From NCBI GenBank assembly GCA_019634615.1, contig JAHCAZ010000003.1, forward strand, positions 124,001-188,000: a stretch of 64,000 bases of DNA. Direction: 5' to 3'. Made by a program: the position numbers and the translations under genes. This DNA is from Opitutaceae bacterium. GTDB lineage: Bacteria; Verrucomicrobiota; Verrucomicrobiia; Opitutales; Opitutaceae. The stretch's first letter is position 1; each line of letters starts with the position of its first letter. The notes beneath the pieces were generated by a model. It had not been told where the DNA came from, searched no databases, and was given only the letters and a program-made list of their open reading frames with translations. Of the stretch, positions 43,051 through 53,478 are shown one piece after another.

Positions 43051-43132
43051 GGGTAGCGCCCGGCCTCTGGACGGGCGGCTCGGCAACCGCATGCGGACGA
43101 TGCTCCGCCCGTCCAGAGGCCGGGCGCTACCC
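43051..43132. repeat. GGGTAGCGCC hairpin repeat, copy 1
   Basis: Perfect 28-bp arms (GGGTAGCGCCCGGCCTCTGG... at the left, complement at 43105-43132) enclose a 26-bp loop. Its right arm supplies the stop codon (TAG, minus strand, 43129-43127) of the kinase-phosphatase fusion gene. Related copies are at 47061-47140 and 59985-60066. Confidence 0.92.
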
Positions 43133-45049
43133 AAGGCCCAGGGCCTTGAGCAACTGCCGGTACTGCGAGAAATCCGGCACCACGAGATGCGCCCCGGCGC
43201 GGATCACGCGGGTGCGCTTTTCCGGGGCGAGGCCGAAGCGCTGGACCTCGTTGCTCGCGAGGCCGACGGTCACGCCGCCGCGCTTGCGCGTCTCGCGGAT
43301 CTCCACCGGGCCGTCGCCAAACGTGACGATGCGCGCCGCGTTGGCCGGGCCGAGTTCGCCGAGGATGCGGTCGAGCACCATGCGCTTGGCATCGTGGGTC
43401 ATGTCGGAGCTGGCTCCATAGATGCGGCCCTCGAACAGCTCGGCATAGCCCAGCGCCTGTGCCTCGCGGATGACGTCTCCTTCGTCGGTGCCGCTGGCGA
43501 GGTAGAGCTTCAGGCCGGCGCGGTGCAGGGCCTGGAGGAACGGCACGGCATTCTTCAGCGTGTAGTCGGTGACGTCGCGCTCGCCGCGCGAGAGGCGCGC
43601 GAGGCGATCCTCGACCAGCGCCATGAGGGCGTCGTTGTAGATGCGCTTGTAGCCGTGGGCATCGAGCACGCGGTCGGCCGGGACGTGGCCCGCCTCGCGC
43701 ACCATCTGCGCGAGCCCGTGCATCTGCTGCAGCGTCTGGATGCCGGTGGTCTTGTCGATGAACTCACGGACCTGCCCGACGACGCGCTCGAAGACGTCGC
43801 GTCCAGCCTGCCGCCAGTCGGGGCCGAGGATCGCCTCGATCATGACCGGCTCCATGACCTTCTCCCAACCCTGGCGCAGGGTGGAGATGGTGCCGTCGTG
43901 GTCGAAGATGGCGTACTTGAGGCTGAGGTCCGCCGGCAGCGGCTCGGCGATCTCGATCTCGGTGCCGGGCACGAACCGGGCGCGGCGCGGATCGGCGGCG
44001 AGTTCAGGTTGGTAGACGTAGTCGGGGGACAGGCCGATCGCGAGGACCTCGTCCGGCGACGCCGTGCCGGTCTGGTGCAGCTTCTGGACGGTGACGCCCG
44101 CGACAAAATTGCCGAAGGTCGCGGCCTCGACCGAGGTGCCACCCGCCGCGAGAGTGGCGGCGATGCCGGCCACCATGCTGTCGCCGGCACCGACGGAATC
44201 CGTCTTCTTCAGCAGATGCAGGCCGGGGATTTCCTGGACGCCGGCGGCCTCGGCCACGAGGCACCCGTGGGCGCCGCGGGTGACGAAGACGGGACGCTGC
44301 CAGCGCCGGAAGAGCTGCTGGGCGGCGGCGACGACGTGGTCGCGCGGGATGGCGGTGCGCGGCTCGGCGCGGCCGCCGGCGAGGCGGACCGCCTCGAGGT
44401 CGTTCAGCTTGTGCAGCGCAGCCGGGTACGCTTCGGCGAGATGGCGGCAATCGACGAGGGCGATCACGCGCGGGTGCCGGGCGAGCAGGGCGTTGAGGCC
44501 GGCCTGAAACTCCGGCGTGTGCAGGCCGCGCTCGAACTGCTGGTTGATGACGAGGGCATCGAGCTCGGGCAGGGCCCGCTCGAGGGCGGCAAGGACCGCG
44601 GCGCAGGTCGCGGAGGCGAGGCGGTTGAAGCACCCGAAGTCGAGGCGGTTAAGTTCGGCCTGGCGGTGGATCGGCTTGAGATAGGAGTGCGTCTGCCAGT
44701 CCTGCGGTTGCGTGATGATGCCGGTCGCGTCGGCGCCGGCCTCGCGCAGCAGGCGCTGGAGTTCGGTGCCCTGGGGGTCGGGGCCGATCACGCCGAACGC
44801 GTGAAGGCGGGTGACGCCGAGCGCGCGCAGGTTGGCGAGCACGTTGCCGGCGCCGCCGAGCGAGTGGCGCTGCTCGCGCACGGGATGGGTCGGCAGCCCC
44901 GTCTCGAGCGAGGCCTCGGAGGCATCGGCGTCGATCTGGTGATAGACATCGACGCAAAAGTCGCCGACCACGCCGATGCGGGCGCGGGTGATGGATTGCA
45001 GGAGGGAGGGGAGACGGGTCGGGCCCACGGGAGTCCTTTGCCCGAGCAA
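43127..45049 (-). CDS. PfkB-type sugar kinase fused to a HAD phosphatase
   Basis: The 640-aa protein has a ribokinase/PfkB domain (about 20-350) with 'RIGVVGDFCVDVYHQID', 'LGGAGNVLANLRALG' and the catalytic 'TDSVGAGDSMVAG' (base D290). The kinase resembles RfaE/HldE-like heptose kinases more than fructokinases. A HAD domain (about 378-640) follows, with nucleophile motif 'IFDHDGTIST' (D383, D385), 'LYLASGTDEGDVI' and 'IVTFGDGPVEI'. Kinase and phosphatase in one chain suggest sequential or opposing action on a sugar phosphate. The last residues lie in a repeat that provides the stop. Confidence 0.87.
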   Translation of the reverse strand: MLGQRTPVGPTRLPSLLQSITRARIGVVGDFCVDVYHQIDADASEASLETGLPTHPVREQRHSLGGAGNVLANLRALGVTRLHAFGVIGPDPQGTELQRLLREAGADATGIITQPQDWQTHSYLKPIHRQAELNRLDFGCFNRLASATCAAVLAALERALPELDALVINQQFERGLHTPEFQAGLNALLARHPRVIALVDCRHLAEAYPAALHKLNDLEAVRLAGGRAEPRTAIPRDHVVAAAQQLFRRWQRPVFVTRGAHGCLVAEAAGVQEIPGLHLLKKTDSVGAGDSMVAGIAATLAAGGTSVEAATFGNFVAGVTVQKLHQTGTASPDEVLAIGLSPDYVYQPELAADPRRARFVPGTEIEIAEPLPADLSLKYAIFDHDGTISTLRQGWEKVMEPVMIEAILGPDWRQAGRDVFERVVGQVREFIDKTTGIQTLQQMHGLAQMVREAGHVPADRVLDAHGYKRIYNDALMALVEDRLARLSRGERDVTDYTLKNAVPFLQALHRAGLKLYLASGTDEGDVIREAQALGYAELFEGRIYGASSDMTHDAKRMVLDRILGELGPANAARIVTFGDGPVEIRETRKRGGVTVGLASNEVQRFGLAPEKRTRVIRAGAHLVVPDFSQYRQLLKALGLG

Positions 45050-48751: not shown

Positions 48752-50986
48752 TCATTCCTGCGCGACGACCCGGTCGACGATGGCCTGGCGCATCTCGGGT
48801 GAGAGGCTCGCGAAGTAGGCGCTGAAGCCGGTCACGCGGACGACAAGGTCCGGGTGCGCGCTCGGGTCGCGGTGGGCCTCGAGGAGCATTTTCTTGTCGA
48901 GGATGTTCATGTTGATCTGCGTGCCGCCCAGCGCGAAGTGGCCGCGGACGAGGGCCACGACCTGCTCGATGCCCTCGCCTGACCGGGACAGGCCGGGGTC
49001 GAGCTCGATCTGCATCGGGGCGGTGTTGCCGTAGCCCGGTTGAACCGCCGCCACGGCCAGCGCCAGGGCGGTCGGGGCGGCGTCGCGGCGGAAACCGGGG
49101 TCGGGATTCGGCCCGTGGGAGATCGAGCCCCGCGCGTGCCGTCCGTTGGGCGTCGCGCCGACGTCCTTGCCCATCGTGATGGTCGCGGCCCAGGAGAAGA
49201 TCCCGGGGATCAGGTTGTAGCCGTGGGGGGTCGGTTTCTCCTTCACGATCGCGGTGAAGGACCGCGCCACCTTGACGCCGAAGTGGTCCGCCCGGGAACC
49301 GCCGCTGCCGAAGCGCGGCACACCCTTCATCAACAGGCGGGCCTGCTCACCCTCCAGTCCGGCCCAGCTCGTTTCGAGCCAGTGGTTGAGCTCGGCCCAG
49401 GTGAGCTGCCCCTCGCGCTCGACCCGTTGCTCGACGGCCGCAAACGAGTCCGCGACGGTCGCAAGCCCGGCCGCGTCGACGCAGAGGTTGTAGAACTCGA
49501 CGCCGCCGTGCGACGCGTCGCGGCCGCGCTCGATCGGACCGTGGCAAAGCAGGTCGAGATGCAGCTCGGGGAAGACCTCGTACATGTGGTCGAGGTGAAA
49601 ATCGAGGCTGCGGCCGACCGTCTCGACGCTGCAGCGCAAGTGCTGCTCGTAGCGGCGCCAGAGCTCGTCCACGCTCGGGGTGGCGGCCGGGTCGGACATC
49701 AGGTCCTTGAAGGCGACCTCGAACACGGCGGCCAGGTTGACCTTCACGCAGTCGTTGACCGTGTATTCGCGCCCGGGCAGCGCGCACCAGTGGCAGCCCG
49801 AATACGCGCGGAGGCGGCCCAGCTCGATGGGGTAGCCGTTGCGCGCGAAGCCGGCGCTCGTGTTGTCCACGCCGAGGAATTTCGGGGTGCCGGTCCGGTC
49901 GGTGAAGAGGATCTCGACCCCGCGCCGGAGGAGCTGCGGGTCGGTGTTTCGGCCGACGCTCACGCCCACGTTCACCGGGATCCGGATGCGGTGCGCGGCC
50001 TCCAGGACGAGGTGCGAGAGCGCGTTGGTCAGGTCGTGGCCGTCGGCGTCGGGCCCGCCGATCTGGGTATAACTCGTGTCACGGAGGAAATAACACGCGA
50101 GATGGAAGATCGCCTCCTCGCCCGACAGCGTGCCGTTGGCGCGGTCGCGCTCGAAGAACGGATACAGGAACTGGTCGATCCGGCCGAGCGCGCCGGCCAT
50201 GTTGTACACCTTGCCGGCCAATTGGTAGTAAAGGGTCCACTGGCAGGCTTCACGGAAGGTCTGCGGGGGCGCGGCGACCAGCCGATCGGAGATGGCGGCG
50301 ATCTCCTCGAGGTTCTGGCGTAGTTCGGGATCAGGCTCGCGTGCGGCCATTTCCCGGGCGGCGGTCGCGTGGCGGCCGATCCAGGCCTGCGTCGCGAGGA
50401 CGAAGTGCTCGAGTCCGTCGTAAAGCGACTGCGCCTCGTCGTCGCGGTTGACGGTGCGGTAGTGGCGAATCCGCGCCAGGATCCCGCCCCATCCCTGCCT
50501 GAGCCCGATCGTCTGGTCCTGGCAGAAGTGCTGGATGGCCCCGACGCCGTGGTGCAGTTTGTATTTCTGCTGCAGCGCGTGGAGGTGGGAGTAGTCGAAC
50601 TCCGGTCGCCACGCGGGCTGCCGGTAGGCGGTGAAATGCGACATGTAGCCGCCCGCCAGCGAGCTCGCCGCGTCGACGCACGCCGGGTGCAGGTCGAGCA
50701 GCGCGCGGAAGTTCTCGCCGCACGCTCGGGCGCCGAAGATGCCGCCGCTCGGGTGATCGCTCTTCACGACGAAATCCTTGAAGAGCGCATCGAAGGCCAT
50801 CACGCCCGAGGCGTTCACGCCGCGGACCATTTTCCGGGCGGCGGCGGGCGGCAGCCGGATCGGCAGGTCGTCCATGTCGGACGCGCCCAACTCGCGCACT
50901 TTCTCCTGCGTCAACCGCAGCTTGGTCGCGCGCAGTCGTTCGATGCGTTCGGCATAGGTCAGGGGCGAGACGGTGGCAGTGGTCAT
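48752..50986 (-). CDS. Glycyl radical enzyme of unassigned class
   Basis: The 744-aa protein has the PFL/GRE fold: 'GALGRIDQFLYPFFERD', 'TQIGGPDADGHDLTNALSHL', 'MGKDVGATPNGRHARGSISHG' and the C-terminal radical loop 'VVRVTGFSAYFASL' with radical G720. The thiyl-loop reads 'AYSGCHWCALPGREY' (C398, C401). Dehydratase and lyase GREs have GCxE, and PFL has adjacent Cys-Cys, so neither pattern fits. The enzyme is therefore not PFL, CutC, glycerol/diol dehydratase or hydroxyproline dehydratase by active-site logic. Its activase gene lies 13 bp upstream. It implies an anaerobic or micro-oxic catabolic step. Confidence 0.92.
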   Translation of the reverse strand: MTTATVSPLTYAERIERLRATKLRLTQEKVRELGASDMDDLPIRLPPAAARKMVRGVNASGVMAFDALFKDFVVKSDHPSGGIFGARACGENFRALLDLHPACVDAASSLAGGYMSHFTAYRQPAWRPEFDYSHLHALQQKYKLHHGVGAIQHFCQDQTIGLRQGWGGILARIRHYRTVNRDDEAQSLYDGLEHFVLATQAWIGRHATAAREMAAREPDPELRQNLEEIAAISDRLVAAPPQTFREACQWTLYYQLAGKVYNMAGALGRIDQFLYPFFERDRANGTLSGEEAIFHLACYFLRDTSYTQIGGPDADGHDLTNALSHLVLEAAHRIRIPVNVGVSVGRNTDPQLLRRGVEILFTDRTGTPKFLGVDNTSAGFARNGYPIELGRLRAYSGCHWCALPGREYTVNDCVKVNLAAVFEVAFKDLMSDPAATPSVDELWRRYEQHLRCSVETVGRSLDFHLDHMYEVFPELHLDLLCHGPIERGRDASHGGVEFYNLCVDAAGLATVADSFAAVEQRVEREGQLTWAELNHWLETSWAGLEGEQARLLMKGVPRFGSGGSRADHFGVKVARSFTAIVKEKPTPHGYNLIPGIFSWAATITMGKDVGATPNGRHARGSISHGPNPDPGFRRDAAPTALALAVAAVQPGYGNTAPMQIELDPGLSRSGEGIEQVVALVRGHFALGGTQINMNILDKKMLLEAHRDPSAHPDLVVRVTGFSAYFASLSPEMRQAIVDRVVAQE

Positions 50987-50999
50987 GCGTTGCGGGCGG

Positions 51000-51983
51000 T
51001 TAAGGTTGCCGGCCGTCGCCGCGGTTCACGGTGGCGATGCCCTGTTGCCGCGCGACCTCGGCCAAGGCGGCCATGGTGGCGGGCGAGGGCGGCTCGATCG
51101 CCGCGGCGGGGTAGGCCTGTCCCAGACTGGCGTACTTGCCGGCGGCGAGCCGGTGAAAAGGCATGATCTCGTAGGTGATCGCGGCGTCCGCGGCGGTCCG
51201 CGCCTGCCGCTGGTCGCGGAGCTGGCGGACAAAGGCGGCGATCGCGCCGATGTCGGCCGGCGTGTCGTTGACCGTGGGCACGACGGGCGTCCGGAAGACG
51301 AGGGGAACGTGCGTGGCGGCGAGGCGGCGCGCGTTGGCGAGGATGCGCTCGTTCGTCTGGCGCGTCGCGGCCCGGTGCTTCGCGGAGTCGATGACCTTGA
51401 GGTCCATCATGAACTGGTCGGTGTGCGGCACCAGCGCCCGCAGCGCGGTCCACGACACCGCCCCGCAGGTCTCCACCGCGGTGTGCAGGCCTTGGGCCTG
51501 GCATGCGCGCAGCACTTCGCGGGCGAACCCATGATTCAGCGCCGGTTCGCCGCCGGAAAGCGTGACGCCGCCGCCGGACAGCTCGTAGAACGGCCGGTCG
51601 GGCAGGATCTCGGCCATGACCTCCGCGACGGACATGCGGCGGCCCTCGGTCTCGAGCGCGCGGGCGTTGCAGACCGTCACGCATGCGGCGGCGAAATCGC
51701 AGCGCGCCCGGTCGAAGGTGTGCACGCCGTCGACGAGCGCGTGGGCGTGCTGCGGACACGCGGCGACGCACTGGCCGCAGGCGATGCACCGGTCGGGATA
51801 ATAGCGCACCTCGGGAGTGGCGTGCTGGCCCTCGGGGTTGTGGCACCAGAAGCAGCGCAGCGTGCAGCCCTTCAGGAAAACCGTGGTGCGGATCCCCGGG
51901 CCGTCGTGCAGCGAGAACCGCTGGACGTTGAAGACGACGCCGGACGGCGTGGTCTTGGGGGTGGGCTGCCTCGCGGGGCGCAT
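51000..51983 (-). CDS. Glycyl radical enzyme activase (radical SAM)
   Basis: The 327-aa protein has the radical-SAM CxxxCxxC at C40, C44 and C47 ('GCTLRCFWCHNPEG'). The inserted ferredoxin domain has one complete cluster (C66, C69, C72, C76 in 'CIACGQCVAACP'). The second reads 'CDFAAACVTVC' (C95, C101, C105), lacking the usual second Cys. 'LSGGGVTLSGGEPALNHGFA' is the SAM-binding GGEP region. It would install the glycyl radical on the enzyme encoded 13 bp downstream. It heads the two-gene operon. Confidence 0.93.
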   Translation of the reverse strand: MRPARQPTPKTTPSGVVFNVQRFSLHDGPGIRTTVFLKGCTLRCFWCHNPEGQHATPEVRYYPDRCIACGQCVAACPQHAHALVDGVHTFDRARCDFAAACVTVCNARALETEGRRMSVAEVMAEILPDRPFYELSGGGVTLSGGEPALNHGFAREVLRACQAQGLHTAVETCGAVSWTALRALVPHTDQFMMDLKVIDSAKHRAATRQTNERILANARRLAATHVPLVFRTPVVPTVNDTPADIGAIAAFVRQLRDQRQARTAADAAITYEIMPFHRLAAGKYASLGQAYPAAAIEPPSPATMAALAEVARQQGIATVNRGDGRQP

Positions 51984-52176: not shown

Positions 52177-53478
52177 ATGCTCTCGGCGATCCGTACCCTC
52201 CTGTTCTGGCTGACCACGCTCGTACTGGTCGCGACGGGATTCTGGTGGGCCAGCCGGCGCTGCGAGCCGGCGGCCCCGCCGGGGCGGACGGTGATCACGT
52301 GGATGGGTTACGTCTCGCCGTTGCGGGACCTGTATGAGGCGGAGGTCGCGGAGTTCGAGCGGCTGCATCCGGACATCGCGGTGAACCTCATCCTGACGCC
52401 GCCCAATGAGTATCACATGAAGTTCAAGACGCTCACGGCCTGCGGTCAGTGCCCGGACCTGTTTTTCTCGGGTGACGTCTGGATGACCTACCTGCAGCCG
52501 TTCATGGCCGACCTCAGCCCGCTGGTTGAGCGCGATGCCGCCGAGATCGGACTCGATGACTATTATCCGGAGATCCGGTCGGCGATGCGGCACGAGGGCC
52601 GCTATCGGGTGCTACCCGAGTCGATGAACATCTCGCTGTGCTACTTCAATCGGCGCCTGTTCCGGGAGGCGGGCGTGGCCGAGCCGACCGAGGACTGGAC
52701 CTGGGACGATGTCATCCGCGCCGGGCAGAAGCTGACGCGCCCGGCCGGGGGCGGGGCGCCGGCGGTCTGGGGTTGCTCGCGACTGGAGAGCTGGTGGGGC
52801 GAGTGGCTGATCTACGTGCGGCAGGCGGGCGGCACGGTGTTCACGCCCGATGGGCGGCGCTGCCTGCTCGATTCGGCGGCGGCGATCGCGGGCCTGCGTT
52901 TCTTCCAGGAGAAGTCCTCGCGGTACGGCATCAGCGCGCCGGCGGGTTTTGAGCCGCCCAACAGCTTCGTCAACGAGCGGGTGGCGATGAACATCGGCGG
53001 GCACCTCGACTTCTGGCTCAACTACAACGTCGTGCCCGAGCTGGATTGGGACGTGCAACTCCTGCCGGCGGGTCCAGTGACCCGGGCGGGCGGCGAGATC
53101 GCGATCGGCGGTTACTCGTTGAACAAGAGATCCCGGCATCCCGAGGCAGCCTGGGCGCTCATGAAGTTCCTCACGCGGCCGGCGAAGATGGCGGCCATCA
53201 CGGCGCGGGGCGGCGTGTCCGTGCGCCGCTCGGTGGCCGAGGTCCAGCTTAGCGATCCCGCTCGGACCGATCGGCCGCGCAACCTGGCCGCCGTTTACCG
53301 GCAGTTGGAGTTCGCCCGGCCGATCCCGCGCCACCCGCACTACATCGAGATCATGCTCCAGCTCGTGCAGCCCGAGGTGGACCGCATGGTGTCGGGCGTG
53401 CAGACCCCGGAGGAAACCGGCCGGCGCGCCGCCGCGGCCGTCAATGCTTTCCTCGACATCTTCTATAACGAGTCCTGA
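52177..53478 (+). CDS. ABC extracellular solute-binding protein (family 1, sugar type)
   Basis: The 433-aa protein has an N-terminal hydrophobic helix ('TLLFWLTTLVLVATGFWWAS') and then a family 1 binding-protein body: 'VITWMGYVSPLRDLYEAEVA', 'DLFFSGDVWMTYLQPFMADL', 'YRVLPESMNISLCYFNRRLF', 'GGYSLNKRSRHPEAAWALMK'. A Cys follows the helix ('SRRCEP'), but the preceding residues do not make a good lipobox, so it may be anchored by the helix. No permease or ATPase gene is nearby. Sugar-type specificity is inferred from the family. Confidence 0.88.
   Translation: MLSAIRTLLFWLTTLVLVATGFWWASRRCEPAAPPGRTVITWMGYVSPLRDLYEAEVAEFERLHPDIAVNLILTPPNEYHMKFKTLTACGQCPDLFFSGDVWMTYLQPFMADLSPLVERDAAEIGLDDYYPEIRSAMRHEGRYRVLPESMNISLCYFNRRLFREAGVAEPTEDWTWDDVIRAGQKLTRPAGGGAPAVWGCSRLESWWGEWLIYVRQAGGTVFTPDGRRCLLDSAAAIAGLRFFQEKSSRYGISAPAGFEPPNSFVNERVAMNIGGHLDFWLNYNVVPELDWDVQLLPAGPVTRAGGEIAIGGYSLNKRSRHPEAAWALMKFLTRPAKMAAITARGGVSVRRSVAEVQLSDPARTDRPRNLAAVYRQLEFARPIPRHPHYIEIMLQLVQPEVDRMVSGVQTPEETGRRAAAAVNAFLDIFYNES

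Follow-up and report, generated by a model that had tools for sequence, protein, structure and literature searches.

A branch of glycyl radical enzymes with tryptophan at the position of the catalytic Cys-loop glutamate

The 64 000-nucleotide stretch of an Opitutaceae genome analysed here (the window) encodes a glycyl radical enzyme (GRE) that we regard, with moderate confidence, as a functional representative of a deep-branching, uncharacterised group of these enzymes with a GC(H/N/Q)W Cys loop; its substrate would be a cyclic sugar or cyclitol and its reaction most likely a radical C–O cleavage. The branch is widespread. Judged from sequence, such oxygen-sensitive enzymes probably catalyse chemistry that nobody has assayed so far, most likely on sugar-like compounds. 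The Trp-loop GRE is a concrete target for new enzyme activity in anaerobic bacteria.

The window encodes a glycyl radical enzyme and its activase

The GRE gene, an open reading frame from ATG to stop on the minus strand (48752..50986), codes for a protein of 744 aa, which we assigned to the Trp-loop (GCxW) family from its domain matches, alignment and trees. It matches PF02901 (PFL-like, E value 2e-80) and PF01228 (glycine radical, 9.1e-13). The translated radical loop reads RVTGFSAYF, in which alignment and translation identify G720 (48827..48829; this and all codons below on the minus strand) as the predicted glycyl-radical residue. On the same strand, 13 bp upstream of the GRE, lies a radical-SAM GRE activase of 327 aa (51000..51983) with a CX3CX2C motif, a ferredoxin-like insert and ferredoxin-type cysteines, which scored 331.6 bits against TIGR02494 (cut-off 174); it is probably the cognate partner of the GRE and co-transcribed with it. 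PFL-like and Gly_radical domains, an RVxG motif, a thiyl Cys and an adjoining radical-SAM activase are all present, and the initial annotation, which had called the protein a bona fide GRE with an adjacent activase, is borne out by the three model matches and the RVTGFSAYF motif. The protein missed the cut-off of every NCBIfam GRE model (best score 246.8 bits versus 678.2), including the equivalog models for HypD, CutC and HpsG/HpfG; the best equivalog score was 205.8 bits, with a cut-off of 1000. It is the sole PF02901 protein found in the genome of the window. Scans around the GRE/activase operon yielded no Rfam families, promoters or terminators.

Tryptophan occupies the position of the catalytic glutamate

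The Cys loop translates as GCHWCALPGREYTVND and reads G-C398-H-W400-C401 (C398, 49793..49795; W400, 49787..49789; C401, 49784..49786). C398, the predicted thiyl-radical Cys, aligns without gap with the GCxE Cys of glycerol dehydratase (Cys433), PflD and HpfG at equal Cys-to-Pro-Gly spacing, and P404-G405 falls on the Pro-Gly/Asn pair of the same three enzymes. Our family set comprises 56 aligned members drawn from Verrucomicrobiota, Clostridia and one or more additional phyla, with a lowest identity of 39% to the window protein. C398 is the only Cys of the window protein that is invariant among them. Since it lies on the GCxE Cys without gap and no other Cys is invariant, W400 takes the Glu position (Glu435 of glycerol dehydratase). 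The earlier proposal that Trp stands in place of the catalytic Glu was thus confirmed by a gapless alignment with W400 in 56/56 members; among the other GREs listed from the alignment, none carries Trp at this position. We also considered an alternative thiyl Cys or a hidden CXE motif. The only C-x-E of the protein, C89-G-E, lies outside the Cys loop and is not conserved, so that no hidden GCxE places the thiyl Cys elsewhere.

Besides C398 and W400, R393, P404, G405, E407, D412, H153 and G720 are invariant in 56/56 members; residue 399 is His, Asn or Gln, and the alignment contains 73 nearly invariant positions. The second Cys of the loop, which the initial annotation had stressed, is not supported as a catalytic hallmark and turned out to be lineage-specific: residue 401 is Cys in 13/56 members and Met in 32/56, in contrast to the invariant W400, E407 and D412. 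E407 (49766..49768) is located in a PGxE(Y/F) segment and is a candidate substitute acid/base, and D412 (49751..49753) and H153 (50528..50530) correspond to Asp447 and His164 of glycerol dehydratase. We take the substrate-site residues of that enzyme to be His164, His281, Ser282, Tyr339, Asp447 and Tyr640; at the other positions of this set, His281 is replaced by Gly, Ser282 and the segment around Tyr339 align with gaps and Tyr640 corresponds to F597. An AlphaFold model of the GRE, built with 5 sequences as input, had a pLDDT of 52.6, with values below 50 in the Cys and Gly loops, too low for reading the pocket. Going by the gapless alignment only, W400 would face the substrate.

Phylogeny and distribution of the Trp-loop family

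In a tree with other GREs, pyruvate formate-lyases (PFLs) and three reference enzymes, the Trp sequences formed one clade, apart from the GCxE GREs and from the PFLs. Support was 100/100 for the core and 96/92 for the core together with a GCQW sister branch; an earlier tree, built from the core alone, gave 100 by SH-aLRT. The window GRE combines the GC(H/N/Q)W loop, the PGxE(Y/F) segment and D412 with a place in this single clade and does not cluster within a characterised GRE family. A reaction class outside the characterised members, as proposed in the initial annotation, appears a reasonable inference. A named GCxW group was not found in the open-access literature.

The sister branch consists of two Verrucomicrobiota sequences, L141 and L142, which show GCQWYC and KVTG and keep H153, D157, W400, E407 and D412. 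Both genes (L141:8982-11303, minus strand; L142:8109-10367, plus strand) adjoin an activase, and their radical motif reads KVTGYSAHF, with K for R. A further GRE from Verrucomicrobiota (L041:1081-3228, minus strand) represents yet another uncharacterised type: its Cys loop, NSCMGLVMPG, lacks both CXE and Trp. A Clostridia GRE (L077) reads VRVWDWSCY, with Asp for the radical Gly; this is most likely a sequence error, because 14 relatives have Gly and the GAC codon, situated at the end of a contig, differs from GGC by one base.

In a phylum-level sample of 388 Verrucomicrobiota genomes, about 21 had strong homologues; the figures were 28 of 391 for the class of a Clostridia MAG and 7 of 82 for the phylum to which locus L048 belongs. 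Locus L047 comes from a MAG labelled Bacteroidetes; among 296 genomes sampled from its phylum, that MAG alone was positive. The family share amounts to ∼5–7% of the sampled Verrucomicrobiota and Clostridia species. Within Opitutaceae the gene was found in the genus of the window only, in two of the five genomes of that genus searched, and relatives 61–75% identical to the window GRE occur in other phyla; taken together, this distribution suggests horizontal transfer. The base composition is not foreign; the GC content of the GRE/activase operon equals that of its flanks. Comparison with a same-genus copy yielded a dN of 0.14 and a dS of 1.0 (dN/dS about 0.14), showing that the gene is under purifying selection.

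Operon context of the family

Of the 56 family GREs, 46 have an activase nearby, in most cases as the immediate neighbour; several contigs end early. Gfo/Idh/MocA proteins occur near 30/56 and xylose-isomerase-like TIM barrels near 11, and sugar ABC transporters recur. Same-strand Gfo/Idh/MocA genes within 2.5 kb were present for 21/56 family GREs versus 0/27 other GREs (Fisher 8e-5, with shared ancestry ignored), where the controls were from Verrucomicrobiota only and two of them were the GCQW sister sequences. A recurrent gene order in Clostridia is TIM-Gfo-Gfo-activase-GRE, with overlapping genes. For three of the neighbouring Gfo/Idh/MocA proteins, whose loci represent two phyla and three clades, DgpA was the best or nearly equal best solved structure (E values of 2e-48, 2.8e-39 and 1.8e-50), with DgpA1 (9m3d) alongside, whereas a control Gfo/Idh/MocA protein from elsewhere in the window matched glucose-fructose oxidoreductase best. 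DgpA and DgpA1 are C-glycoside 3-oxidases. Enzymes of this type perform a regiospecific oxidation of C- and O-glycosides that yields 3-oxo products (PMC11239390). Among the further partners are proteins similar to hydroxypyruvate isomerase, ketose 3-epimerases and phosphomannose isomerase.

In the clade closest to the window GRE we found activase-GRE-URO-D-sugar ABC transporter operons, and the URO-D family neighbours in this clade carry an HxC...C motif. Three of these proteins (L047:12381-13481, L048:12453-13616 and L109:7863-8960) are encoded directly downstream of the GRE, and their motif is zinc methyltransferase-like; a close solved relative was not found for the one tested (L109). In six loci, including L064:11591-12379, L117:8132-8905, L118:7975-8757 and L059:10842-11597, a protein of ∼255 aa directly follows the GRE; of three tested, two had no Pfam match and one was weakly cupin-like. 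As gene contexts vary among clades, the substrates may differ between them.

The window itself contains the two-gene core of activase and GRE only, without DgpA-like, URO-D or sugar ABC transporter partners. Upstream of the core lies a divergent solute-binding protein (at 52177), downstream a DUF4838/GH67N protein and others. We considered the solute-binding protein as the transporter component of the operon; it is just 24–26% identical to those beside homologous GREs and probably unrelated, and the genome has many permeases of similar kind. At 43127..45049 (minus strand), the window also encodes a fusion of a PfkB-type carbohydrate kinase with a HAD-type hydrolase domain. In L047, a homologue of this protein is located behind the ABC transporter genes downstream of the GRE. 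The glycan setting claimed in the initial annotation is better supported by the operons of the homologues, with their DgpA-like proteins, xylose-isomerase-like TIM barrels and sugar ABC transporters, than by the window's own neighbours, which are suggestive.

Proposed reaction and alternatives

The CXE Glu normally deprotonates a hydroxyl of the substrate. As this residue is replaced by an invariant Trp, a cyclic sugar-like or cyclitol-like substrate, which would stack on W400, appears most likely. The fixation of Trp at this place within the clade points to another active-site solution, and the operon partners direct the search for a substrate towards oxidised sugars, cyclitols or anhydrosugars. 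By homology, the activase would generate the radical on G720, from where it would pass to C398 as a thiyl radical and on to the substrate. Proton transfer could be carried out by H153, D412 or E407; alternatively, no base would be needed if the neighbouring DgpA-like oxidoreductases had already made the substrate carbonyl. The outcome would most likely be a radical-triggered C–O cleavage, by elimination or ring opening (or else a C–C cleavage), in anaerobic sugar or glycoside catabolism.

The protein could instead be an ordinary eliminase of the diol or polyol dehydratase type that performs the known 1,2-elimination on a new substrate, with the base moved to E407, D412 or H153. We consider this possible but less probable. 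The invariance of E407, the match of H153 and D412 to His164 and Asp447 of glycerol dehydratase and the top-scoring solved relatives (eliminases such as HpfG, PflD and glycerol dehydratase) are in line with it. However, the CXE Glu is essential both in IslA, where E470Q is inactive (PMC8473560), and in HypD (Glu436; PMC7077986), H281, S282 and the Y339 segment are unmatched and the family stands as a separate clade.

A sugar-directed reaction also has a more specific version, to which we assign a rather low probability: Trp-loop GREs may act on 3-oxo-sugars or 3-oxo-glycosides supplied by adjacent DgpA-like oxidases. Hydrogen abstraction beside the keto group would yield a stabilised radical, which would expel the aglycone or open the ring without a Glu base; anaerobes would thereby cleave glycosides by a radical route.

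A GRE that forms or breaks C–C bonds, of the PFL or X-succinate synthase kind, is improbable. PFLs with their Cys-Cys-x-Ser also do without the Glu, and CXE has been described for eliminases only, but in 56/56 members Gly and not Cys precedes C398, the clade is separate from the PFLs, the fumarate Arg at Cys+15 is replaced by Thr, Cys, Ile, Val or Leu, and accessory subunit genes are absent among the neighbours identified. Finally, the Trp-loop proteins might be degenerate paralogues without catalytic function, having lost a residue that characterised eliminases cannot do without. This is hardly credible given that the activase and both radical residues (the thiyl Cys and the glycyl-radical Gly) are retained across phyla, with the low dN/dS and the nearly invariant positions reported above.

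Comparison with known glycyl radical enzymes

The GRE eliminases (glycerol/propanediol dehydratase, CutC, HypD, IslA, HpsG/HpfG and PflD/YbiW) have the domain family, the radical Gly motif, the position of the thiyl Cys and the ferredoxin-type activase in common with the Trp-loop GRE, which also has the equivalents of H164 and D447 of glycerol dehydratase (H153 and D412). They carry the CXE motif in the Cys loop (PMC8473560, PMC7077986), whereas the Trp-loop family has Trp in all members, no matches to H281, S282 and Y339 and a clade of its own. The arylacetate decarboxylases HPAD and IAD share GRE domains, Cys and Gly loops and activase type. However, they keep a Glu (Glu1) beside the thiyl Cys (PMC6181972), where the Trp-loop GRE has Trp, and the window GRE scores far below the decarboxylase model cut-offs.

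PFL shares the GRE domains, and the CXE Glu is missing in both, but in the same alignment PFL shows Cys-Cys-x-Ser and the Trp-loop family Gly-Cys-x-Trp. The X-succinate synthases BSS and MASS likewise share the GRE domains and stand outside the eliminases for which CXE is described. Their fumarate-binding Arg at Cys+15 (Arg508 in BSS, Arg492 in MASS; PMC12358834) has no counterpart in the Trp-loop family, where position 413 is T, C, I, V or L. The aminoacyl radical enzymes, in which Ala, Ser or Thr replaces the radical Gly (PMC11528403), are likewise uncharacterised GRE relatives found via a residue substitution; they change the radical Gly, whereas the Trp-loop family keeps this Gly in 56/56 members and changes the Glu of the Cys loop.
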